Shown here one piece after another: positions 1,596-21,001 of a stretch of 36,056 bases of DNA. The stretch is taken from positions 1-36,056 of the forward strand of contig JAJRQE010000212.1 in NCBI GenBank assembly GCA_024280415.1, in the 5' to 3' direction. This stretch comes from Spirochaetota bacterium. Its GTDB lineage: Bacteria > Spirochaetota > Spirochaetia > B11-G9. The notes beneath the pieces are model-generated. The model was not told the origin of the DNA and ran no database searches. It was given only the letters and a program-made list of their open reading frames with translations. The position numbers were made by a program, and so were the translations under genes. Each line of letters begins with the position of its first letter. Position 1 is the first letter of the stretch.

Positions 1596-1736
1596 AACTC
1601 CGGTGGGAGAATAGTTATTTTAAGGATGAGGTAATGTATGCATATTCTGGTGAAAAAAGGATGTTTCACTGGCGGAAAAAGCCAAAACAAGTTAAATTTA
1701 TAGACATTTAAAATACCTCTATTTTAATTCAAAACA

Positions 1737-1771
1737 TTGATTTACCCGTCGATCCTTAGTATTATACTAAG
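1737..1771 (+). promoter_or_regulatory. Promoter with a perfect 17-nt palindrome over the -10
   Basis: The -35 is TTGATT (1737-1742), the spacer is 17 nt, and the -10 is TATTAT (1760-1765). CTTAGTAT-T-ATACTAAG (1755-1771) is a perfect dyad with 8-bp arms covering the -10, a classic repressor position. It would drive the small membrane protein at 1893 with a leader of about 120 nt. The rest of 1596-1892 holds no gene that I can support. Confidence 0.52.
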
Positions 1772-1853
1772 TGTTAATAATTCCAGTTATTAAAGAAAGG
1801 TCACTCGTAGAATTAGTTTTTGCAGAAACCCCAAAAACAGGATATCGGTTAAA

Positions 1854-1866
1854 ATACCCGGGGTAT
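1854..1866 (+). promoter_or_regulatory. ATACCC-G-GGGTAT dyad before the 1893 gene
   Basis: This is a short dyad with the same TACCC/GGGTA half-sites as the CsoR-type operator at 2944-2964, but with a one-base centre instead of five. It sits 27 nt before the start codon at 1893. It may be a related metal- or persulfide-sensor site, but the spacing differs from canonical CsoR operators, so I keep it tentative. Confidence 0.33.
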
Positions 1867-1892
1867 ATTCTTACACAATCAGGAGAAAATAT

Positions 1893-2234
1893 ATGATGTA
1901 TTCGGGCGGAAATTTTTTTGGTTTTTTTTGGATTTTACCATTATTGGGCTTTACTGCCTTTCTTTTTATGATCTTTTTAAGAGGAAAACATTCCTCCTCT
2001 TCCGATAATTCTTCTCACTACTTTGAGAAGAAGCACGCAAAAGAACCAAGAGCAATACCGGAAGAAATAAGACAGGCTGGCCAGGATGTTCTGGATAATC
2101 TTGACTGGGAAATACGATTATTGGGAAAACAACGCCTTGATACAGATAACAGAAAAGAAAAAGAAAAAATTGAGCTGGAGCTTAAGGGTAAAAAAGCAGA
2201 CTACAGATCTGTTATAGAACGACTGGAACTGTAG
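1893..2234 (+). CDS. Small membrane protein with cytoplasmic coiled-coil tail, function unknown
   Basis: A 113-residue protein. Residues 8-30 form one hydrophobic segment (FFGFFWILPLLGFTAFLFMI), preceded by the short MMYSGG start typical of SHOCT-type small proteins in metal loci. A Ser/Lys-rich linker follows, then from about residue 53 a charged helical region (EEIRQAGQDVLDNL to the C-terminus) likely to form a coiled coil. No catalytic motif is visible. The start has a good ribosome site (AGGAGA). It is preceded by two dyads (1755-1771 and 1854-1866), and it belongs by position to the metal-response island. I do not recognise a named family. Confidence 0.74.
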   Translation: MMYSGGNFFGFFWILPLLGFTAFLFMIFLRGKHSSSSDNSSHYFEKKHAKEPRAIPEEIRQAGQDVLDNLDWEIRLLGKQRLDTDNRKEKEKIELELKGKKADYRSVIERLEL

Positions 2235-2251
2235 TCAGGGGGAGGATACGT

Positions 2252-2344
2252 ATGAAATGGGACGACTTACATATATATTTCCCATCTCATACAATCTCCA
2301 GGTATAGTTTGTCTGTTTTTATAATCCGTCTACTACAAAAATGA
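2252..2344 (+). CDS. Possible 30-residue ORF behind a strong ribosome site
   Basis: GGGGGAGG sits 7 nt before ATG 2252, which opens a 30-codon frame beginning MKWDDLHIYF and ending KTGA-like at TGA 2342. It starts just after the 1893 gene and runs into the convergent DUF302 gene by 26 nt. The same DNA contains an imperfect 13-bp inverted repeat (2250-2262 / 2280-2292), so the region might instead fold as a weak terminator between convergent genes. There is no homology that I can name. Confidence 0.22.
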   Translation: MKWDDLHIYFPSHTISRYSLSVFIIRLLQK

Positions 2345-2705
2345 GCTTATCCCTTATTTGAGCAGCAATATCTTTCAAAGCGTCATTATCAATTGCAGTC
2401 ATCGATGCTACAGGATCTACAACCGAGACATCAATGAGACCATCTCCCATCTCCTGTACTACAAAGTTGCAGGGAAGCATAAGTCCAACTCTCTCTTCTG
2501 CAGTAATCGCTTTATTTGAAAAAACCGGATTACAAGCACCTAAGATTCGATATGGTCTGAATTCAACATCAATCTTCTCTTTAAAAAGATCCTTTATATT
2601 TATGTCGGAGAGTATACCAAAACCCTCTTTTTTCAGGCCTTCAGCAATTTTTTCTACAAGCTGGTCAATAGTTCCTTCAATTTTCCTTGAATAATAGTAG
2701 TTCAT
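2319..2705 (-). CDS. DUF302 domain protein
   Basis: A 128-residue cytosolic protein that is essentially one DUF302 domain: an N-terminal strand YYYSRKIEG, a helix (DQLVEKIAEGLKKEGFGIL), then the family core LGACNPVFSNKAI around the single Cys and LPCNFVVQEM. DUF302 proteins often occur beside metal, thiol or sulfur-stress genes, and their biochemical role is unknown. Its ATG overlaps the stop of the upstream SHOCT gene (ATGA, 2702-2705). The two are thus one transcriptional unit, presumably under the CsoR-type operator at 2944-2964. Confidence 0.86.
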   Translation of the reverse strand: MNYYYSRKIEGTIDQLVEKIAEGLKKEGFGILSDINIKDLFKEKIDVEFRPYRILGACNPVFSNKAITAEERVGLMLPCNFVVQEMGDGLIDVSVVDPVASMTAIDNDALKDIAAQIRDKLIFVVDGL

Positions 2706-2923
2706 AAATTTCCATCCTTTAAAATTGTATTTTTCATTTCATCATATTCAATCCGGGAGATCTCCCCGGAGGCAAATCTTTTTTGCAGGATTTCCAGGGA
2801 TGATTTACTGCTGTCTCCCCCGGAACTCTCCCCGAATCCATCAATACTGAGACCCGGTTTACCTCTTAGATAATTAACCAGATAGACAGCACCAATTACT
2901 CCGGCTATTAAAAATATTATCAT
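2702..2923 (-). CDS. Small SHOCT-domain membrane protein
   Basis: I place the start at 2923 (MIIFLIAGVIGAVYLV, ribosome site GGAGGT), giving 73 residues. A longer frame to 2995 would put its first codons inside the promoter and operator. Residues 1-20 form one membrane segment, then there is a Gly/Ser-rich linker. From about residue 44 comes a SHOCT motif (LEILQKRFASGEISRIEYDEMK), the short C-terminal helical domain found on many small membrane and metal-resistance proteins. It is translationally coupled to the DUF302 gene. It has its own promoter and CsoR-like operator just upstream, so it probably responds to copper or sulfane sulfur. Confidence 0.8.
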   Translation of the reverse strand: MIIFLIAGVIGAVYLVNYLRGKPGLSIDGFGESSGGDSSKSSLEILQKRFASGEISRIEYDEMKNTILKDGNL

Positions 2924-2943
2924 CACTTCGCTACCTCCTGTAG

Positions 2944-2995
2944 GTATACCCCCCTTGGGTATACATAAGATAAATATAATCCGCTGAATAGTCAA
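2944..2995 (-). promoter_or_regulatory. Promoter with CsoR/CstR-type operator
   Basis: On the minus strand, the -35 TTGACT (2990-2995), 17-nt spacer and -10 TATCTT (2967-2972) form a good sigma-70-type promoter. Over the expected start lies GTATACCC-N5-GGGTATAC (2944-2964), a perfect dyad with 8-bp arms. It carries the TACCC/GGGTA half-sites typical of operators of the CsoR/RcnR/FrmR/CstR family of copper, nickel, formaldehyde and persulfide sensors. The position fits repression of the SHOCT-DUF302 pair. No CsoR-family gene is in the window, so the regulator must be encoded elsewhere. Confidence 0.74.
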
Positions 2996-3010
2996 GTATT
3001 ATTTATAAAA

Positions 3011-5473
3011 TCATTCAACACTCACCTTCCGGTCAAGAACAAGTAGAAGTATTGGCACAAATGTAATTGAAGCAGCCAGGCTGAATAGTGTACCGAAAAA
3101 CAACAGTATCCCAAGACCGGAAACAAGAGGATCATGGACAAAATAAAGAGATCCAAATCCAATCATAGTTGTCAGTGATGTAATAATAACAGCCTTCCCT
3201 GATTTTTGAAGCATAGTGCTTATCGATTTATCAGGATCGGAAATATAACTTTGAACCATATGAATTCCGTCATCTACAGCTATACCAAGAATCAGAGGAA
3301 ATGCTGTTATATTGGCTGCATTAAAACTTATCTCAAAAAAAGACATGTATCCAAGAAGGAAAGCAAACCCCGCAAGAACAGGAGACATTACTATAAAAAT
3401 GTATTTTACATTTCTAAAAACCAGGGAAACAATCAATAGAATTGCAAAGAATACCAGAGAAGAACTCCGGACAAGATCAGATCGGATATACTCTACAAGT
3501 TTTACCCACATAAAGGGAGTACCTGTAGATTCAGGATGAATTTCTGTCAGTTCTCTGACTGTCCCCTTCATTTCAGCCTCGTCCCACATATCCGGTTTAC
3601 CATATACAAATATTGCCAGAGAACCATCTTTCCCAAGATATTTATTTTTAAGCTGATCCGGAAGTGATTCAAATGTTACAGGGCCATAATCCTTTATACC
3701 CAGAAGATTCTCGGACAGTATACCCCAAAATGATACAAGCTTCATTTCCAACTCTGAGGGGTTAATATTTATGGAAGAACTGTTCCTATAATAGTTCGAA
3801 AGGACAGGGAGATATTCAGCTATACTGGTATTTTCTCTAAGAAATTTTCTGACCTCTTCTATTCTCAAATCCTGCCCGGTTGGTATAATTGTTGATGGTG
3901 AATCGATGAGTGAATATCTACCGCTCTTTTTTAGTTTTTCGTAGACTTCCCCTGCCTCAGCAATATCTTTAGTACTGACAATACTATACTCAAAGGACAT
4001 TCCCATCTCTTTAATAAGCTCACGCTGCCGCAGAACTGAAGGTATTTCAGGAAGCAGCTCGAAAGCATTATAATTATAACCTATGTTAAAACCTGTAAAA
4101 TATGGAACTGCCATGACTATCAGAAGAACTGAAAGTACTGCAATTTTCTTTTTATTTAAAAATTTAGTATAGATCCTGGAAATACTGATCCCATTATCTG
4201 CCGTCGTCTTACTCCTGGTCTTTAATACCCTCAAAATAACAGGGAGAATAATCAAGACAAGGACTAAACACATTAAAATTCCAGTACCTGCTATAAATCC
4301 CAGCTCCTTAATACCTTTAAATTCTGAAAACATGAGGAGAAAGAAGGCGGCTGCAGTAGTAATTGCTCCTGCGGCAATACCCGGTACAACATTTTTAAAA
4401 ACTTCAGCTACTGCATCAAAATGGCTTTTCCCCTTATCAATTTCATGAAAATAATGGGAAATAAAGTGAATTGAAAAATCGATACCAAGACCCAGTAATA
4501 TTACAGCAAATATACTCGTAACAAGATTAAGCCTCCCAATGACCAATTGGTTTATTCCCAGAGTCCAGACAATTGCTATTAAAACAGGTATGGATGCTAT
4601 CAGAGAGGACCATACTCTTTTGAAAGCTGCCATAAACAGAATAACAATACCCACCAGAGAGAGTAAAGAAACAATCAATATCCTGTTATTCAACAGGGAC
4701 TGCTGCTCTTCCATCATCTTTGCCATGCCATTTACATCTACACTTATTTCGGGATAATCCGGTTTTAGTTCACCTAGAATAGTATTTACATCTGCAGTCA
4801 TCTCTTTGAAAAAAAACATATCATGATTGGGGTTAGTAGGCCTGAGAAACATAATCATTCTATTACTGCTGCTAATATAGTAGTAACCGTTCTCTGTAGT
4901 TAAACTGGATCCACTACCGTTTTTGCTGGATATAAAATTTGAATTATCAGACAAATTCCATCTATTAATTTGTTTCCGCAGCTCAGTATTTCTCTCAACC
5001 AGAAGCTGAAGATTCTTAAAAAACTGAGTACCCTCCGGTTTCTTCATCATAGAACGGTTCAGTATAACTTTATATTTATTGAGAAAGGAGATTATTTCTC
5101 TATAATCATTCTCTCCTGCATAGAGCAAAAAGTTATCCGTAAAAAAATCTACAGGAATACGGTAATCCACAGATAATATCGTATTAGTAAAATCTGACGC
5201 TTTGTTATTTATTTCATTGGCAAATAATTCCATTCTGGATTTATCAGGACCCTCCAATACCAGTATGATATTATCAAATCCACCAAAATTTTTCGAAATT
5301 CTGTTAAATTTAATTATATCTTCGTCCTGGTCCGGAAGTAATGTATAGGTTCCCATTTCTATATTGGTTTTTGAGGCTATGATCCCCCAGAATACAGTAC
5401 CAAGAAGGATCAGAATAACAATAAAGATAGACATATTTCTACTAAAGTTACCGTCAAAAGCTTTTATAGCCAT
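3011..5473 (-). CDS. RND-superfamily exporter of the MMPL/HpnN type
   Basis: An 820-residue inner-membrane protein with the duplicated RND layout. It has an N-terminal membrane helix (14-34), a first large periplasmic domain (about 35-260) and a cluster of five helices (about 265-420) with the family motif LGLGIDFSIHFISHY. Then come a second helix near 445, a second periplasmic domain (about 465-665) and five final helices with LGIAVDDGIHMVQSY. The Asp residues in both motifs are those of the proton-relay region. MMPL/COG1033 proteins move lipids or hydrophobic compounds outward using the proton gradient; the substrate here is unknown. It lies 21 nt after the rhodanese gene, so the two are one operon. 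Confidence 0.9.
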   Translation of the reverse strand: MAIKAFDGNFSRNMSIFIVILILLGTVFWGIIASKTNIEMGTYTLLPDQDEDIIKFNRISKNFGGFDNIILVLEGPDKSRMELFANEINNKASDFTNTILSVDYRIPVDFFTDNFLLYAGENDYREIISFLNKYKVILNRSMMKKPEGTQFFKNLQLLVERNTELRKQINRWNLSDNSNFISSKNGSGSSLTTENGYYYISSSNRMIMFLRPTNPNHDMFFFKEMTADVNTILGELKPDYPEISVDVNGMAKMMEEQQSLLNNRILIVSLLSLVGIVILFMAAFKRVWSSLIASIPVLIAIVWTLGINQLVIGRLNLVTSIFAVILLGLGIDFSIHFISHYFHEIDKGKSHFDAVAEVFKNVVPGIAAGAITTAAAFFLLMFSEFKGIKELGFIAGTGILMCLVLVLIILPVILRVLKTRSKTTADNGISISRIYTKFLNKKKIAVLSVLLIVMAVPYFTGFNIGYNYNAFELLPEIPSVLRQRELIKEMGMSFEYSIVSTKDIAEAGEVYEKLKKSGRYSLIDSPSTIIPTGQDLRIEEVRKFLRENTSIAEYLPVLSNYYRNSSSININPSELEMKLVSFWGILSENLLGIKDYGPVTFESLPDQLKNKYLGKDGSLAIFVYGKPDMWDEAEMKGTVRELTEIHPESTGTPFMWVKLVEYIRSDLVRSSSLVFFAILLIVSLVFRNVKYIFIVMSPVLAGFAFLLGYMSFFEISFNAANITAFPLILGIAVDDGIHMVQSYISDPDKSISTMLQKSGKAVIITSLTTMIGFGSLYFVHDPLVSGLGILLFFGTLFSLAASITFVPILLLVLDRKVSVE

Positions 5474-5494: not shown

Positions 5495-5977
5495 TTATCT
5501 GCTTTTTATAATAAGATCATTTCCAGACCTTTTCCATGCGTTTGAACCACCTGCCAGTTCCACAATATTTGTATATCCAGATTTGACCAACTCTCTGCTT
5601 GCATACTGGCTCATAGGACCACTCATACAGTACAGTACAATAAGTGCATCTTTACGGGGATACTGTTCCATAATATCATTAATTCTATTAAAAGCAATGT
5701 TTGCATCTGTTTTTGGAATTTCACCCTGATAAGGAATATGGACATTAATCAGGTCAAAGTTCTTATTCTCCAGCATTCTTTTCAGCTGATCAGAACTTAC
5801 CTGCCTGTAACCATATCTATTTACGGGAATTTCCTGTAGGAATATACCATTGGGACTAATCGCAAAAGAAGGACTGATCCCAGCCCCATTCATCATACTG
5901 CCGGATTCATTCCCTTCAGGAAAAATCATTCCCACTGTTAAAATACTAAATACTGCAAATGTTAAAATTTTTCTCAT
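5495..5977 (-). CDS. Exported rhodanese-domain protein
   Basis: A 160-residue protein with a signal peptide (MRKILTFAVFSILTVGMIFP, cleavage near residue 20) and a Met-containing mature start (NESGSMMNGAG). One rhodanese domain follows: DLINVHIPYQGEIPKTDANI is the usual 'DVR..E...GHI..A' region in altered form, and LIVLYCMSGPMSQYASREL supplies the active-site Cys loop. The loop CMSGPMS lacks the Arg usual in sulfurtransferases, so the substrate may differ. It probably handles sulfane sulfur or thiols in the periplasm. It is first in an operon with the MMPL exporter. A direct-repeat regulator box lies upstream at 6028-6047. Confidence 0.86.
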   Translation of the reverse strand: MRKILTFAVFSILTVGMIFPEGNESGSMMNGAGISPSFAISPNGIFLQEIPVNRYGYRQVSSDQLKRMLENKNFDLINVHIPYQGEIPKTDANIAFNRINDIMEQYPRKDALIVLYCMSGPMSQYASRELVKSGYTNIVELAGGSNAWKRSGNDLIIKSR

Positions 5978-8927: not shown

Positions 8928-8967
8928 ACTTTTACGGTAGTCTTTAAAAAATCCAATGGAGGGAGTT

Positions 8968-11385
8968 ATGTCAGAATACAAATGTCCAATGTCATGTGAA
9001 GGTGATAAAACCTATGAAAAACCGGGGTCCTGTCCGGTTTGTGGTATGTTTCTTAAAGCCGCAGGTGATGAAGAAGATCACTCGGGTCATGATCACTCGG
9101 GTCATGATCACTCAAGTCACTCACACTCAAGTCATGATCACACTCAAAAGACTCTGTGCATCTGCGGTGATGAGGATTGTTCAGGATCCTGTAAAACAAA
9201 CTGCCAATGTACTTTCCAGGAATTGGTTCTTAACCAGGAAGTAATAACAGATGTCGCCCCTGAAAAAAATGGTGAATTTATCTGTCCAATGAGATGTGAA
9301 GACGATAAAACATACCCTGAACCGGGTTCCTGCCCTGTCTGCGGGATGCACCTTAATAGGGTAATTGCTTTTGGAGTACCTCAGCCTGAAAAAGAAACAG
9401 ATGAAGTCAAGGCTTTCAAGGATATGCGGCTCAAGTTTATAGTTGGAGCAATATTCTCTTTTCCAATACTTATCCTTGCCATGTCGGAACTTATACCCGG
9501 GGCATCTGAATTGATAAAAACCTACATCAGTCCTCAGGCAAATCAGCTGGCTCAATTTATACTTTCCATTCCTGTAATGTTCTATGCAGGTTTCTTTATT
9601 TACAAAAGGGGAGTACTTAGTCTGATTACCAGAAACCTGAATATGTTTACCCTAATAATGATCGGTACCGGCGCTGCCTGGATATACAGCTTTTTCGGCT
9701 TGTTCTTTCCAGAATTTTTTCCAAACTCCCTGCTGAATGCAGAAGGTCAGATTCCGGGATATTTCGAAGCTGCCTCTGTTATTATTACTCTCGTTATTCT
9801 GGGACAGCTGCTGGAACTTCTTGCCCATGTAAGAACCAATTCGGCTATTAAAGAGTTATTAAATCTTGTTCCCGCAACAGCCTTTGTTATTCGTAACGGA
9901 GAGGAGAAAGAAGTTCCACTTTCGGAGGTTCATGTTAATGATATTCTAAAAGTAAGACCTGGAGACAAAATTCCTGTTGACGGAGTAATTCAGGAAGGAA
10001 ACGGTATTGTTGATGAGTCAATGATTACTGGAGAACCTCTGCCTGTCGATAAGGAAGTGGGTGATGAAGTAACAGGTGGGACGATCAACTCCAATGGCAG
10101 TTTTTTAATGACTGCAGTTAAGGTTGGCGGAGAAACCCTGCTGGCAAGAATTATTAATATGGTTAATGAGGCCTCCCGGTCAAAGGCACCTATCCAGAAA
10201 ATAGCCGATAAGGTATCCGGAGTCTTCGTTCCTGCGGTAGTGGCAATTGCAGTAATTACAATGATTGTCTGGGGACTGAACGGATCCTGGGATCTGGGCT
10301 TTGTCTATGCCATTGCTGTTCTCATAATTGCCTGCCCATGTGCTCTCGGACTGGCAACCCCTGTTTCCATAATGGTAGGAACAGGTCGTGCCGCCCAAAC
10401 AGGAATTCTTATAAAGAATGCCAGAGCACTGGAACAGATGAGAAAAGTTACAGCCGTAATGGTGGATAAAACAGGAACACTTACAGAAGGAAAGCCTGCA
10501 GTCCATATGTTTAAAAGCCTCGGTTCATATTCGGATAAAGAAATCCTGCAGATTGCGGCTTCTGTGGACTCAAACAGTGAGCATCCTCTTGCAAAAGCAA
10601 TTATTGATGCTTCCAAAGAAGAAAATCTGGAACTTAAAAAGACATCGGACTTTACTTCCATTACAGGAAAGGGTGTTCTTGCTAAAATTGGGAACAAACA
10701 GATTGGAGTAGGCAGTTTAAAATTACTGGAACACTTCAATATAGAATTACCAAAACTGGAAGATTCTATTACTGACCTGCAGAAAAAAGGCCACACACTG
10801 ATATACATTTTATCGGATGAGAAACTTGCCGGAGTACTAAGTATTACTGATAAAATAAAGGCTTCCACTCTTGCAGCAGTAAAAACTCTGCAGCATAATC
10901 ATATTAAGGTAATTATGATGACCGGAGATAATAAAATGACTGCTGCTGCTGTTTCCGAAGAGCTACATCTGGATGATTTTTATGCAGAATGTATGCCCGA
11001 GGATAAATACCGCCTGGTCAAAGAACTACAGGAAAAAGGCGAGATTGTGTGTATGGCTGGTGACGGTATAAATGATGCACCTGCTCTGGCTCTGGCGGAT
11101 GTTGGAATTGCCATGGGTACCGGAACTGACGTCGCCATGGAGAGTGCCTCTATTACCCTGGTAAAGGGAGATCTTATGGGGATATCCAAATCCAGCATTC
11201 TCAGCACAAGGGTAATGGGCAACATAAAACAAAACCTTTTCTTTGCATTTGTTTATAACGGGATTGGGATTCCTATTGCAGCTCTGGGACTGCTTAATCC
11301 AATATTTGCAGGACTGGCAATGTCATTCAGTTCCGTATCTGTCCTTGTAAATTCTCTCAGATTAAAGAGAGTCTCTTTTGATTAG
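8968..11385 (+). CDS. copA: Cu+-exporting P1B-type ATPase with double HMBD and His/Cys-rich N-terminus
   Basis: I choose ATG 8968 because GGAGGG sits 5 nt before it (an in-frame ATG at 8956 lies in front of that site), giving 805 residues. The order is HMBD-type metal site (5-30, with CPM and CPVCGM), a His-rich run (38-58), a Cys cluster (Cys64, 66, 71, 75, 79 and 81), a second HMBD (105-130), then the ATPase core. Its CPC motif is at 456-458, the phosphorylated Asp is at 500 in DKTGT, and SEHPLA and [19 protein letters not shown] follow. The last helices carry YNGIGIPIA and MSFSSVSVL, the Cu(I)-specific signature. It pumps Cu+ out of the cytosol. The next gene overlaps it by 8 nt. Confidence 0.93.
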
Positions 11386-15350: not shown

Positions 15351-15710
15351 ATGAAACAGGACGAAGGAAAATGCAAGACATATTTAATTCACCCGAACAC
15401 AGTGGAAAAAGTGCTGCAGGATATTCCGCAAGAGGAACTTTTAATAGATCTTGCAGATTTTTTTAAAATATTTGGAGATACCACACGTATAAGGATACTC
15501 AGTGCACTCTTTGTTACCGAGATGTGTGTGTGTGATCTTTCTGAAGTCCTTGGGGTAAGTCAGTCAGCAATGTCCCATCAATTAAAAACACTGCGTCAGG
15601 CAGGGCTTGTAAAATACAGAAAAGAGGGAAAGTCAGCTGTCTACTCTCTCAAAGATAATCATGTAAAGCAGATTATCGATACAGGAATTATCCATATCAC
15701 AGAGCAATAA
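15351..15710 (+). CDS. ArsR/SmtB-family metal-sensing repressor
   Basis: A 119-residue winged-helix repressor. It carries both classic metal sites: the alpha-3 type with Cys59-x-Cys61-Asp62 in EMCVCDL, as in CadC/ArsR, and the alpha-5 type with Asp102, His104, His115 and Glu118, as in SmtB/CzrA. The recognition helix is VSQSAMSHQLKTLRQAGLV. The presence of both sites suggests a sensor for Zn plus softer Cd/Pb. It is the first gene of an operon, 10 nt before the P1B-ATPase, with its operator at 15312-15337. It should repress its own operon until metal binds. Confidence 0.93.
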   Translation: MKQDEGKCKTYLIHPNTVEKVLQDIPQEELLIDLADFFKIFGDTTRIRILSALFVTEMCVCDLSEVLGVSQSAMSHQLKTLRQAGLVKYRKEGKSAVYSLKDNHVKQIIDTGIIHITEQ

Positions 15711-15720
15711 GGAGAACGAG

Positions 15721-17799
15721 ATGGAAAAATATAGATTAAGGAACCTGGATTGTGCAGACTGTGCATTAAAAATTGAGACGGGCCTTAAAAAACTGGATAG
15801 CGTAAACTTTGCTTCTATAAATTTTGCAACAGCCCAGCTCCGGATAGATACAGAAAACATAGAGGAAGCAGAAAAGCTGATTAAGGATCTGGAGCCTGAA
15901 GTAGAACTTGTTGGTCAGACAGCTCATAGTCATGAGCAGGATGAAGACCTTAATTTAAAAACTGAACTGATCCGTCTGGGTCTGCTGCTTGCCTCATTTG
16001 CAGGAGGTTTAATATTTATAGACAAACTGGAGGCCACTCCATTTCATCTGGGAGAATGGGTTGTATTCCTTGCTGTCTATCTTTTCAGCGGTTGGAAAGT
16101 TCTCCGGGCTGCCGGGCGTAATATACTTAAGGGTCGTATTTTTGACGAAAACTTCCTTATGGCAATCGCTACTATTGGTGCAATGTTCATTCATGCTCTG
16201 CCTGAAGCTGCAGGGGTCATGATTTTCTTTACTGTAGGAGAATTTTTCGAAGATCTTGCCCTTGCCAGATCCAGGAAATCAATAAAAGCCCTTATGGAAA
16301 TACGTCCGGATTCAGCCAGAATACTAAAAGATGGCGAGTATGTAGATATTAGCCCTGAGGGAGTGAAAACAGGTAGTACAATTCTGGTCAAACCCGGAGA
16401 ACGTGTACCTCTGGATGGAGAAGTTATCTCGGGAGATTCCCAGGTTGACACATCTGCCCTGACAGGAGAATCTGTACCGAGAACTATTAATAAAGGTTCA
16501 GTAATTCTGGCAGGAATGGTTCTGCTTTCCGGTTCTCTGACTATAAAAACAACAAAAACTTTTGCAAATTCATCTCTTTCCAGAATTCTTGAACTTGTGG
16601 AAGATGCTCTTCAGAAAAAAGCAAAAACAGAAAAATTCATTACAACATTTGCACGTTACTACACCCCCATAATAGTTTTTTCTGCTCTTGGAATAGCTCT
16701 CCTGCCACCTTTGCTTGTTCCTGGAGCACTTTTTAGCACATGGATCTACCGTGCGCTGGTAATCCTTGTAATTTCCTGTCCCTGTGCTCTGGTTATAAGC
16801 ATTCCCCTGGGATATTTCGGTGGAATTGGAGGCGCATCCCGAAAAGGTATTCTTATAAAAGGTTCCAACTACATTGATATTCTGGCTAAGGTTAAAACAG
16901 TTGTGTTTGATAAAACAGGAACCCTCACAACAGGAACTTTTGAAGTAACAGAGATCAATCCAAGAAACGGTTTTTCCAGAGATGATATTATTAAAACCGC
17001 TGCTCTTGCCGAAGCACATTCAAACCACCCCGTTGCTCTCTCCATAAAAAAAGCCTGGGGAGGAGAGGTTCGTGAATCAGACGTAACTTCCCACGAAGAT
17101 ATACCTGGTTATGGAATAAAAGCAATAATCGATGGAAAAACTATTCTTGTAGGTAATGACAGACTTCTTCATAGAGAAAATATTAAACATACCGACTGTG
17201 AGATAGCGGCAACAGTAGCATATGTTGTAATAGACAGCGTTTACAGCGGATATATTATTATCAGTGACCGAATAAAGGAGGATTCTGCAAAAGCCCTTAG
17301 GGAATTAAAAAAACTAGGTATCCAAAAGACAGTGATGCTGACAGGTGACAACGAAAAAACTGCAAAAAGTGTCGCTGCAGAAATTGGTATTGACGAATAC
17401 TATGCAGAACTTCTACCGGATGACAAAGTTAAGAAACTGACAGAGATTATATCTGCAAATAATGGTTATACAGCATTTGTCGGAGACGGTATCAATGATG
17501 CTCCGGTAATTGCCCTGGCAGATGCCGGTATTGCAATGGGAGAACTGGGATCGGATGCTGCAATAGAAACAGCAGACATTGTTCTTATGACAGACGCTCC
17601 GTCTAAAATAGCCCAGGCTGTTAAAATAAGCAGAAAAACCCGCACAATAGTAATTCAGAATATTACCATAGCACTTGTTATAAAACTGGTTTTTGTAGGA
17701 TTAGGTATAGCAGGTCTTGCAGGAATGTGGGAAGCAGTATTTGCAGATGTAGGAGTTGCGCTTATAGCAATTTTTAATGCCTTAAGGGTTTTAAAGTAG
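15721..17799 (+). CDS. zntA: Zn2+/Cd2+/Pb2+-exporting P1B-type ATPase
   Basis: A 692-residue pump. Residues 1-65 form an HMA-like domain with Asp10-Cys11-x-x-Cys14 in LDCADCALKIE, the DCxxC form favoured by Zn/Cd pumps. Membrane helices follow, then the CPC motif at 353-355 in VISCPCALVISIPLGY. The phosphorylated Asp397 lies in DKTGT, the HP motif in AHSNHPVAL, and the hinge in [19 protein letters not shown]. The C-terminal helix contains FADVGVALIAIFNALR, with the Asp typical of the Zn/Cd class. It exports divalent soft metals from the cytosol. It is co-transcribed with the ArsR-type repressor and ends at a strong terminator. Confidence 0.93.
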   Translation: MEKYRLRNLDCADCALKIETGLKKLDSVNFASINFATAQLRIDTENIEEAEKLIKDLEPEVELVGQTAHSHEQDEDLNLKTELIRLGLLLASFAGGLIFIDKLEATPFHLGEWVVFLAVYLFSGWKVLRAAGRNILKGRIFDENFLMAIATIGAMFIHALPEAAGVMIFFTVGEFFEDLALARSRKSIKALMEIRPDSARILKDGEYVDISPEGVKTGSTILVKPGERVPLDGEVISGDSQVDTSALTGESVPRTINKGSVILAGMVLLSGSLTIKTTKTFANSSLSRILELVEDALQKKAKTEKFITTFARYYTPIIVFSALGIALLPPLLVPGALFSTWIYRALVILVISCPCALVISIPLGYFGGIGGASRKGILIKGSNYIDILAKVKTVVFDKTGTLTTGTFEVTEINPRNGFSRDDIIKTAALAEAHSNHPVALSIKKAWGGEVRESDVTSHEDIPGYGIKAIIDGKTILVGNDRLLHRENIKHTDCEIAATVAYVVIDSVYSGYIIISDRIKEDSAKALRELKKLGIQKTVMLTGDNEKTAKSVAAEIGIDEYYAELLPDDKVKKLTEIISANNGYTAFVGDGINDAPVIALADAGIAMGELGSDAAIETADIVLMTDAPSKIAQAVKISRKTRTIVIQNITIALVIKLVFVGLGIAGLAGMWEAVFADVGVALIAIFNALRVLK

Positions 17800-17872: not shown

Positions 17873-19618
17873 ATGATTCAAAAAAATAAATCCTACTTCA
17901 AAGTCCCATCTCCACGATTCTTCAGTTACCCAATTCTTGGTCTTATAGTTTCAACAGCTCTATTGTTAATAATTGTTGGTATTTTAACGTGGACTAACTA
18001 CAACAGAGAATCACAACTACTGGAAGATTCCCTAAAACGGCAGGGTGAAACTGTCATAAGTGCAATGAAGGCAGGATTCCGTTCCGGCATGGATATTATG
18101 TGGAAAAAATCACAGCTTAATTTATTATTCAAGGAAACTGCCACAGGTCCAAATATTGACAGAATCCTGCTGGTTGATAGTAATGGCTCTGTCCTGAATG
18201 ATAGCATGAATCCCAGTACAAATTGGTATGACAAATTCTTTTTTAACCCTGATAAAAACGGTTAAACAGTAACTTTGGTATACCAGAATTCAAACAGGGA
18301 GAATATATTTCGTTTAATAAGCCCTTACGTATTTACAGGTAATCAGATGAATCAATTTAGAAAAGGGCAGTTTTGCAAAGAAGGGGGAGAAATAAATTCA
18401 GTGGGGTTTAGTACTGGTAGTTACTATATTATCCTTGATTTAAAAATGTTTGAGTACCAGGAAGCTCAGGCAGAAGATATTCGCTTTTCCATACTTTATG
18501 GTTTAATACTTCTTGTAGTAGGATCAGCCTCCTTCTATTTTTTACTTCTGGCTCAAAACTATTATGTAACAAACCATACTCTTAAAACAATGGAAAGTTA
18601 TACACAGAATATTCTGGAAAGTATGCCCAATGGCCTTATATCTCTGGATAATGAAGGAAAGATTGAATCTATTAACCATAACGCCCTTCAATTACTTAAA
18701 CTTGATTCAGACAAGATAAAAGGGAAAAAGATTGATGTTGTTCTGCAGAACTGTAAACTACCGGAACCTTCTTTATTGGATAATAATATTCTTCAAAAAC
18801 AAATAGAATGCCAGTTAAATGACAACTCAGTAATTCCTCTTAATATAACAGTAAGCAAGTTAAATAATGGATTGGGAGAGAAAATTGGGCTTGTAATTAT
18901 TCTTAGTGATCTCCGGGATATTCGTTCCCTGGAAAAGCAGATACTGAGATCAGAAAGACTTGCCAGTCTGGGAAGAATGGCAGCAGGGATTGCCCACGAA
19001 ATTCGAAATCCTCTAAGTTCTATAAAGGGCTTTGTTCAGTACTTTAGAAATAGATTCCCTGATAATTCCAGGGATCGTGCCTATGCGTCTGTTGTGGTTA
19101 ATGAGGTGGATCGTCTGAATCGTGTAATTCAGGACATGCTGAACTTTGCAAAACCAAAAGAACCAAAACTTGAAAAAATTATACTCCAGGACGTTATTGA
19201 CCATAGTTTAAAACTTATGAAACCCGATATAAGCGGAAATGCTATAGAGGTATCAACAAATTATTCAGAAACCAGTCCAATATATATTTTTGGAGATTTT
19301 GATATGTTAACACAGGTTTTTCTAAATCTCTTATTAAATGCTATCGATGCAATGAAAACCAATGGGAAGCTAAGTATATCAATTTTCCGTAAAGCTGAAA
19401 TTACCAATGTCATTATGACTGATAATGGGGAAGGGATACCTGACAAAAATATTCGAAAAATATTTGATCCATTTTATACTTCCAAAAAAGAAGGAGCTGG
19501 TCTGGGACTGGCTATAGTACACAGGATTATTGAGAGTCATGAAGGCGAGATTAGTGTTGAAAGTATTCCAGGAAGTACAATTTTTCGAATAACTTTTAAA
19601 ACAAGTAGGAAATATTGA
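17873..19618 (+). pseudogene. ZraS/HydH-like sensor histidine kinase interrupted by an in-frame TAA
   Basis: Codons 1-130 give a membrane helix (about 20-43) and the first part of a periplasmic sensor. TAA at 18263-18265 then stops translation. The same frame continues without any shift (TTG 18275 is in phase) through the rest of the sensor, a second helix (about 210-230), a PAS domain (about 240-330), and HisKA with His375 in GIAHEIRNPLSS. HATPase motifs (NLLLNAIDAM, DNGEGIPD, GAGLGLAI) end at 19618. The whole frame is 582 codons with one internal stop. A CAA-to-TAA change is the simplest cause; readthrough or restart at TTG 18275 are alternatives. It is the partner of the NtrC-type gene 17 nt downstream. 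Confidence 0.8.
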
Positions 19619-19634
19619 ACAGGAGTAAGAACAG

Positions 19635-21001
19635 ATGAACCTAGTGATAAAAAAATCAATACTTATTATTGATGATGATACAGGCCATAGATTAATGCTT
19701 AGGGCATCTCTTGATGGAAAAGAATATGAAATAAGTGAAGCGGAAAGCGGGGAAGAAGCTATTGAAATGGTCACTGATAAATTCTTTGATTTAGTTCTTC
19801 TGGATTTAAAAATGAAAGAGATGGATGGGATAGAAACTCTCAAATTTATCAAAAAAATAAGCCCATCCATTCCAGTCCTAATAATGACAGCATACGCCAG
19901 TGTCGACACAGCAGTACAAGGTTTAAAACTGGGAGCCATCGATTATATGGTGAAACCTATGGATATGAATCAGTTACTCGTAAGTATTGAAAAGATCTTA
20001 AATTCAAATCAACTTAAAGTAGATAATACGGTATTAAAAGAGCAGTTTCATTATAACTTTGATTTTTCAACAATTATAGGAGAAAGTAAAAAAATTAAAG
20101 ATGTTTTTGAAATACTTGCCATGGCTGCACCCAGTGATGCAACAATACTAATTTTAGGGGATAGTGGCACTGGTAAAGAATTAATTGCAAATGTTGTTTA
20201 TCGCAACAGCTTTCGAAAAGAAAAATCCTTTATTAAAATAAACTGTGCCTCACTGGCCGAAAACCTTCTGGAAAGTGAATTGTTCGGCCATGAGGAAGGG
20301 GCATTTACCGGTGCAGTAACAAAGCGTTTGGGAAGATTTGAGCAGGCCGATGGAGGCACTCTCTTTCTGGATGAAATTGGCGACATGAGTCTTGAAACAC
20401 AGGCTAAGATCCTGAGAGTTCTACAGGAGGGAGAATTTGAACGTCTGGGTGGAGAACAATCCATTAAAACAGATGTAAGAATTATAGCCGCCACTAATAA
20501 AAATTTGGAAGAGGAAATACAGCAGGGGAAATTCCGTAAAGATCTATTTTTTAGATTGAGTGTTGTAACAGTCCATATTCCACCACTCAATGAACGAAAA
20601 GAAGATATACCTGCCATTGCAGATTATTTTTTAAAAAAATATACAAAAAAAATAACCGCCTGATCAATGGGTTCACCCCTGCAGCAATAGATCTGTTTAT
20701 GAGATATGAATGGCCCGGAAATGTTAGAGAGTTGGAAAATATTGTAGAAAGGGCTGTAATTCTTTCCAGAGAAACATTTATATCACCGAATGCCCTGCCT
20801 ATAAATCTAACAAAGGAATCAGCTCAAAGAGAGATCGTATTGGAAAATACTCTTGTAGGTCGCTCAATAAAGGATGTTGAAAAAGAATTAATTACCAATA
20901 CCCTAGAGCAAACTGGAAATAATATTACAAAAACAGCAGAAATTCTGGGACTGACCCGGCGTGGATTACAATATAAATTAAAGGAAATGGGCATTCGTTA
21001 G
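19635..21001 (+). pseudogene. ZraR/NtrC-like sigma-54 activator with a -1 shift at an A8 tract
   Basis: The first frame (19635-20663) encodes a receiver domain (Asp57 in LVLLDLKMKE) and an AAA+ domain with Walker A GDSGTGKE (175-182), the sigma-54 loop GAFTGA (222-227) and Walker B GGTLFLDEIGD. It stops soon after YTKK. The -1 frame continues as NNRLINGFTPAAIDLF, then RYEWPGNVRELENIVERA and a Fis-type helix-turn-helix ending LGLTRRGLQYKLKEMGIR at 21001. The switch lies at A AAA AAA (20645-20651), in the exact register for -1 slippage. It is therefore either a one-base deletion in a homopolymer, a sequencing error, or programmed frameshifting. The full product would activate the sigma-54 promoter at 21158. 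Confidence 0.82.

Follow-up and report, generated by a model that had tools for sequence, protein, structure and literature searches.

The SHOCT and DUF302 genes of the window, i.e. of the whole stretch of 36,056 nucleotides that was analysed, are most probably (we put it at roughly 0.8) a copper-inducible, CsoR-repressed pair that represents a pump-less remnant of a copB operon. Both the operator in front of the pair and its copper reading are well supported by comparison. In the model that we favour, the dyad would be the operator of a copper-responsive CsoR encoded elsewhere, most likely by the csoR gene next to copA. Without excess copper, CsoR would occupy the operator over the expected transcription start and block the promoter, and Cu(I) bound by the Cys-His-Cys ligands of CsoR would lead to its release, upon which SHOCT and DUF302 would be made. 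The pair would descend from a copper-resistance operon of the order SHOCT-copB-DUF302-HMA chaperone-multicopper oxidase from which the pump was lost. Our guess is that Cu(I) might be handled at the membrane, or handed to a pump, by SHOCT as a membrane protein and by DUF302 as a cytosolic protein with two invariant cysteines. The DUF302 family is widespread and has members of solved structure, and we found no role assigned to it. What assigns it to a copper regulon here is the operator, together with a paralogue, a complete operon of orthologous genes and the neighbours of the family in distant phyla.

The operator, the promoter and the gene pair

The perfect dyad GTATACCC-CCCTT-GGGTATAC (Table 1) is the sole match in the window at up to three mismatches, where 0.06 would be expected. 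The looser pattern TATACCC-N2-7-GGGTATA also matches once in the window, compared to no match in 100 shuffles, and the single match to RTATACCC-N3-6-GGGTATAY in the whole genome (3.91 Mb) is again the window dyad, which is the most symmetrical operator found in this genome. Note that the symmetry by itself is no proof, since one perfect inverted repeat of 8 bp with a 5-base spacer was found in the window and 0.79 are expected by composition; what decides is the CsoR letters and the spacing. CsoR type 2 sites are given as ATATACCCCTNAGGGGTATAT, with TAC-X9-GTA, in the available sections of PMC3902906. The window dyad has the register of this streptomycete consensus as well as its spacing, i.e. 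it is a pseudo-palindrome of about 21 nt in which a TAC-X9-GTA inverted repeat flanks G/C tracts. The near-ideal CsoR-type operator on a SHOCT-DUF302 pair that the preliminary description had claimed is in this way confirmed as a real candidate site at the sequence level.

Table 1. Positions of the features discussed in the text (window coordinates unless another locus is named)
Feature	Position	Strand	Basis
CsoR-type operator GTATACCC-N5-GGGTATAC, inner TAC-X9-GTA	2944..2964		sequence; genome and window scans; published spacing rule (PMC3902906, available sections)
-35 element TTGACT	2990..2995	-	promoter scan; same layout in relatives
-10 element TATCTT, two bases before operator	2967..2972	-	promoter scan
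Ribosome-binding site AGGAGG	2934..2939	-	sequence
SHOCT protein, 73 aa, hydrophobic N-terminus	2702..2923	-	Pfam E 4.5e-07; ATG 2923
DUF302 protein, 128 aa	2319..2705	-	Pfam E 5.6e-20; ATG overlaps SHOCT stop (ATGA)
Palindrome ATACCCGGGGTAT	1854-1866
113-aa ORF	1893-2234
MMPL gene	3011-5473
Rhodanese domain	5495-5977
CopA-type ATPase	8956-11385
ArsR/SmtB-type regulator and Zn/Cd-type P1B ATPase	15351-17799
ZraS-like kinase and sigma-54 response regulator	17873-21001
PIN-domain and HicB/RHH-like genes	902-1595
MMPL-like transporter region, locus L294	6788-9195
MMPL-like transporter region, locus L299	1-2600

The preliminary description had also proposed to scan the genome for the same operator. 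In its strict form the dyad is unique, and a near-identical second operator is present on contig C262 (see below). A relaxed scan of the own genome with up to three mismatches gave 258 sites versus 256 in the control; as there is no excess, no large regulon is visible and the regulon is not delimitable by such a scan. The half site GGGGGGTATRS occurs nine times in the genome (control 3), three of these sites belonging to the window unit, the C262 locus and the csoR gene on contig C88, and no copper link was seen at the remaining six. Sites on contigs C62, C212 and C278, as well as a site from the relaxed scan that lies inside an open frame on C225, were left without assignment to copper. A second palindrome of the window, ATACCCGGGGTAT, was rejected as an operator, its halves being arranged as TAC-X5-GTA instead of X9; it precedes a 113-aa ORF that has no Pfam family.

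A sigma-70-like promoter can be read on the minus strand, with TTGACT and TATCTT separated by 17 bases and 9 of 12 consensus positions matched. As these elements end two bases before the operator, transcription is expected to start inside it. Nine sites of the 9/12 type are found within 1700-3200, compared to 5.0 +/- 2.5 in shuffles, so the promoter is unremarkable alone. Of the earlier statement that the operator sits on the start of a strong promoter, the promoter-like -35 and -10 elements beside it stand, and the strength is not established. The TTG start listed for the SHOCT gene at 2995 falls within the promoter, and the ATG at 2923 was taken as the start. Profile matches (Table 1) bear out the identities given earlier for the two proteins, DUF302 scoring 71.4 bits against the PF03625 cut-off of 23. 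The window unit consists of SHOCT and DUF302 only, i.e. it contains no P1B ATPase.

CsoR proteins and copper operons in the genome and its relatives

The preliminary description had implied a distant regulator and had let its proposal depend on a CsoR/RcnR/FrmR-family protein somewhere in the genome. A profile search of the assembly, which is 97.7% complete, revealed two CsoR-family proteins above the Pfam cut-off, both outside the window contig, and none was found among the scanned window genes. On contig C149, the genes behind csoR encode a CopA-type ATPase with the metal motifs CASC and CNHC and, next, a multicopper oxidase (these neighbours were named from sequence, the ATPase also by a match); the csoR gene on C88 stands alone, near ffh. 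Both proteins retain the copper ligands Cys, His and Cys, i.e. the genome encodes copper-type CsoR; when the C149 protein is aligned with 4adz and 4m1p, which are structures of copper CsoRs, the ligands are its Cys42, His66 and Cys70. At the C149 csoR-copA promoter we find a degenerate site, TAG-X9-GTA, and the C88 csoR promoter is without a clear TAC half; given these degenerate sites, recognition of the TAC-GTA dyad by the two CsoRs is something that we infer from relatives.

The C262 locus is the closest counterpart of the window unit within the genome. Its operator, ATACCCCCCTAGGGTAT, has a 17-base core that is one base off the window operator and stands 28 nt before a SHOCT paralogue of 72 aa that is 43% identical to the window SHOCT. 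Directly behind this gene, all that is left of a CopB ATPase is its C-terminal 64 residues, shortly preceded by a stop codon; this remnant is 79% identical to the CopB of G006, a genome of the same family. In G006 the operon is complete. Behind an operator (TAC-X9-GTA) come SHOCT, a protein of 223 aa whose end is itself SHOCT-like, CopB with a CPH motif, a DUF302 protein 69% identical to that of the window, an HMA chaperone and a multicopper oxidase. A similar arrangement is seen in G107, where the operator is located 44 nt before a SHOCT orthologue, followed by a 222-aa protein resembling the 223-aa one of G006. G001, which belongs to the same genus, has an operator-like site (one dyad change), a broken SHOCT gene whose two halves are in different frames, csoR and copA, and its DUF302 gene lies about 0.5 kb from csoR-copA. 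TTGAC is located 44-50 nt before the operator GTA in seven of the eight promoters tried, namely those of the SHOCT units of the window, C262 and G006 and of the csoR-copA units of C149, G001 (two) and G003 (one); at the eighth, in front of the C88 csoR, this arrangement was not found. The arrangement is common to the csoR-copA promoters of the genus. The simplest history would be an ancestral operator-SHOCT-copB-DUF302 unit whose pump was lost in the window copy and of which C262 kept the CopB tail alone.

At the level of the class, CsoR-family genes are present in 63 of the 118 genomes searched, own genome included. A G-tract-GTA element was found within about 330 nt upstream in 18 of the 30 csoR loci read, among them the own two; 30 of 31 loci were used, L216 being left out as the motif did not recognise its csoR, and the 12 loci without the element include L222, where the motif apparently took the wrong frame. 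The csoR genes of G080 and G111 are preceded by TATACCCCCCTGGGGTATA and TATACCCCCCGGGGGTATA, respectively, which are nearly the window site. The left half at csoR promoters is often TAG, not TAC, as in TAGGGTAGGGGGGTA, whereas the window and C262 sites are fully inverted. TAGGGTAGGGGGGTA recurs before csoR in several families of the class (L203, L209, L214, L215, L220, L223, L226), and there both G-tracts are on one strand, as opposed to the inverted tracts at SHOCT units.

The exact form ATACCC-N5-GGGTAT occurs at 66 sites in 44 of the 118 genomes, while reversed controls total 26. Twenty of the 66 have a csoR, DUF302 or SHOCT match no more than 5 kb away, where well under one of 66 would be expected by chance (arithmetic from feature counts). 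At least 22 of the 66, the own two included, precede csoR, copA, copB or an orthologue of the SHOCT gene by no more than 300 nt; this is a lower bound, as all sites were compared with csoR, DUF302 and SHOCT positions and a fetched subset was read for ATPase genes. Of the 21 sites that contain at least five Cs or five Gs in a row, 13 are placed in this way. The same element is thus found at csoR and copper-export genes of the lineage, and it is degenerate at the own csoR genes. An MMPL-like transporter gene begins 40 nt past such a site in G069. Another such site, in G117, has an HMA-like gene and a gene for a similar transporter beside it, and the gene immediately upstream of the window operator is of the MMPL type as well; MMPL-like pumps may be part of the copper regulon in the class.

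The DUF302 protein and its genomic company

The structural model of the DUF302 protein (mean pLDDT 95.5) matches 1q9u (Z 20.9, rmsd 1.3 over 127 residues) and 1j3m (Z 20.3, rmsd 1.1 over 124 residues) over its whole length. These two DUF302 structures in the PDB share the fold and both conserved cysteines with the window protein, and their entry titles give no function. The only clear fold match besides DUF302 itself is 7tj1, an entry deposited under the name of a CrcB transporter; matches of medium strength, to kinase-associated domains, were set aside. Cys58 and Cys79, in the motifs ACNP and LPCN, are present in every sequence of two DUF302 alignments, one of 13 and one of 43 members, and the two cysteines are compatible with both a Cu(I)-thiolate site and a role in sulfur carriage or transfer.

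A DUF302 match, weak in two cases, was obtained in 17 other relatives. In 8 of them a P1B (heavy-metal) ATPase adjoins DUF302 or is one gene away; G001 has the gene near csoR-copA, and in the remaining 8 the stretch read shows neither. In more distant bacteria, the best 80 of 586 relatives were considered. Here tblastn detected a P1B ATPase at no fewer than 16 loci, a multicopper oxidase at 12 or more and either of them at 24 at least, compared to 0 of 80 for the control protein Ffh; an earlier motif count of P1B ATPases (10 of 80) had missed cases, and the tblastn count is used. Neither enzyme was found in the flanks of 56 of the 80 loci, many of these flanks being short. A DUF302 frame was available in 77 of the 80 loci, and all 152 nearest-neighbour proteins, each trimmed to at most 350 aa, were scanned. 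Recurrent neighbours are SHOCT (5/75), HMBD (5/77) and DUF3347 (2/75 and 4/77), followed by E1-E2 ATPase (1/75 and 3/77), Cu-oxidase_3 (1/75 and 3/77) and rhodanese (2/75).

In the available excerpts of the literature, DUF302 genes are also described in sox or sulfur-oxidation clusters of other bacteria (PMC5037610, PMC11034169) and in an Arthrobacter sulfur module, and DUF302 is likened to a gene of the Synechocystis sqr1 operon; similar excerpts place DUF302 at the flank of a heavy-metal cluster in Acidihalobacter and list it beside ccoG in Bradyrhizobium. The occurrence in sulfur clusters speaks against a role in copper alone and makes a sulfur role of the DUF302 protein itself conceivable. 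We speculate, with odds that we would place somewhat against it, that DUF302 might be a cytosolic Cu(I)-thiolate buffer or a delivery partner of CopB-type ATPases, acting via the two cysteines and docked to the membrane by SHOCT, and that members in sulfur clusters might use the same pair for sulfur transfer.

Alternative readings, known systems and the surroundings

It is unlikely, though it deserves some weight, that the pair is regulated by a copper CsoR and is nevertheless a decaying leftover of the lost copB operon that no longer matters; the regulatory part of this reading is the same as in our preferred one. Decay would agree with the sister locus C262, which keeps only the CopB tail, and with the broken SHOCT behind the operator of G001. 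However, the two window genes are both open, they overlap by stop and start codon and have a ribosome-binding site, the alignment-invariant DUF302 residues are kept, and it is this locus that carries the most symmetrical operator of the genome.

Far less probable is that a CstR-like persulfide sensor reads the operator and that the pair serves in sulfane-sulfur detoxification. CstR-type sensors keep the Cys pair and lack the copper-ligand His. The profile search recognised no CstR-like protein in the 97.7% complete assembly, its only two family members both having the His and the other copper ligands. At first sight there are several links to sulfur: CstR and TTHA1953 belong to the same protein family as CsoR and use TAC/GTA inverted repeats (PMC10318464, available sections), DUF302 genes occur in sox clusters and in the Arthrobacter module, rhodanese turns up in two of 75 nearest-neighbour proteins at distant DUF302 loci, and a rhodanese domain lies about 2.5 kb from the pair, as had been described. 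The same sections show a different effector and operator spacing for the sulfur regulators, the Thermus thermophilus member using TACNNTACNNNNGTANNGTA, which the window site does not match. CstR regulons contain genes for rhodanese, sulfite exporter or sulfide:quinone oxidoreductase, often near cstR (PMC10318464, in the parts available), and neither gene behind the window operator is of this kind. Copper pumps are encoded in the orthologous units, along with an HMA chaperone and a multicopper oxidase, and the csoR-copA and SHOCT-copB units of relatives are headed by the same operator layout; the rhodanese 2.5 kb from the pair does not belong to these units. The window rhodanese itself was dropped as a member of the system: no TAC-X9-GTA site with G/C tracts precedes its gene, and no relative of it was found in the 80 distant DUF302 loci. 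The earlier link of DUF302 and SHOCT to copper or sulfane-sulfur stress is accordingly narrowed, the copper part being retained on the strength of the operator, the copper-type CsoRs and the units of relatives, and the persulfide part finding no support here. Very improbable is an origin of the dyad by chance, or its use by a different factor. In favour of chance, about one such 8-bp repeat with a 5-base spacer is expected per window of this size; against it stand the exact CsoR letters and spacing at a promoter, recurring at paralogous and orthologous copper genes.

It is useful to compare the copper-regulated pair that we propose with known CsoR systems. In Staphylococcus aureus, the copB-mco operons under CsoR are copper units that encode a CopB-type ATPase together with a multicopper oxidase. 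The same two proteins occur together in G006, which adds SHOCT, DUF302 and an HMA protein; the window unit, in contrast, is without pump and without oxidase. The CsoR-controlled copZA/csoR genes of Streptomyces lividans (PMC3902906, available sections) share with our case the 21-bp pseudo-palindrome, TAC-X9-GTA, the G/C tracts and the copper ligands of CsoR. There, a pump and a chaperone are controlled, whereas the window operator would control SHOCT-DUF302, with csoR on another contig. Full-text searches for DUF302 or SHOCT together with copper, covering titles and the beginnings of abstracts, returned no CsoR-controlled DUF302 or SHOCT unit.

A few further genes of the window should be mentioned. 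A CopA-type ATPase (TIGR01511, 547 bits against a cut-off of 397) carries two heavy-metal-binding HMBD stretches and has no CsoR-type operator directly before it. Further on, an ArsR/SmtB-type regulator is followed by a Zn/Cd-type P1B ATPase. The genes behind it, for a ZraS-like kinase and a sigma-54 response regulator, are each broken into two ORFs, which looks like the effect of a frameshift or of misassembly. Near the start of the window, overlapping PIN-domain and HicB/RHH-like genes probably constitute a toxin-antitoxin pair.
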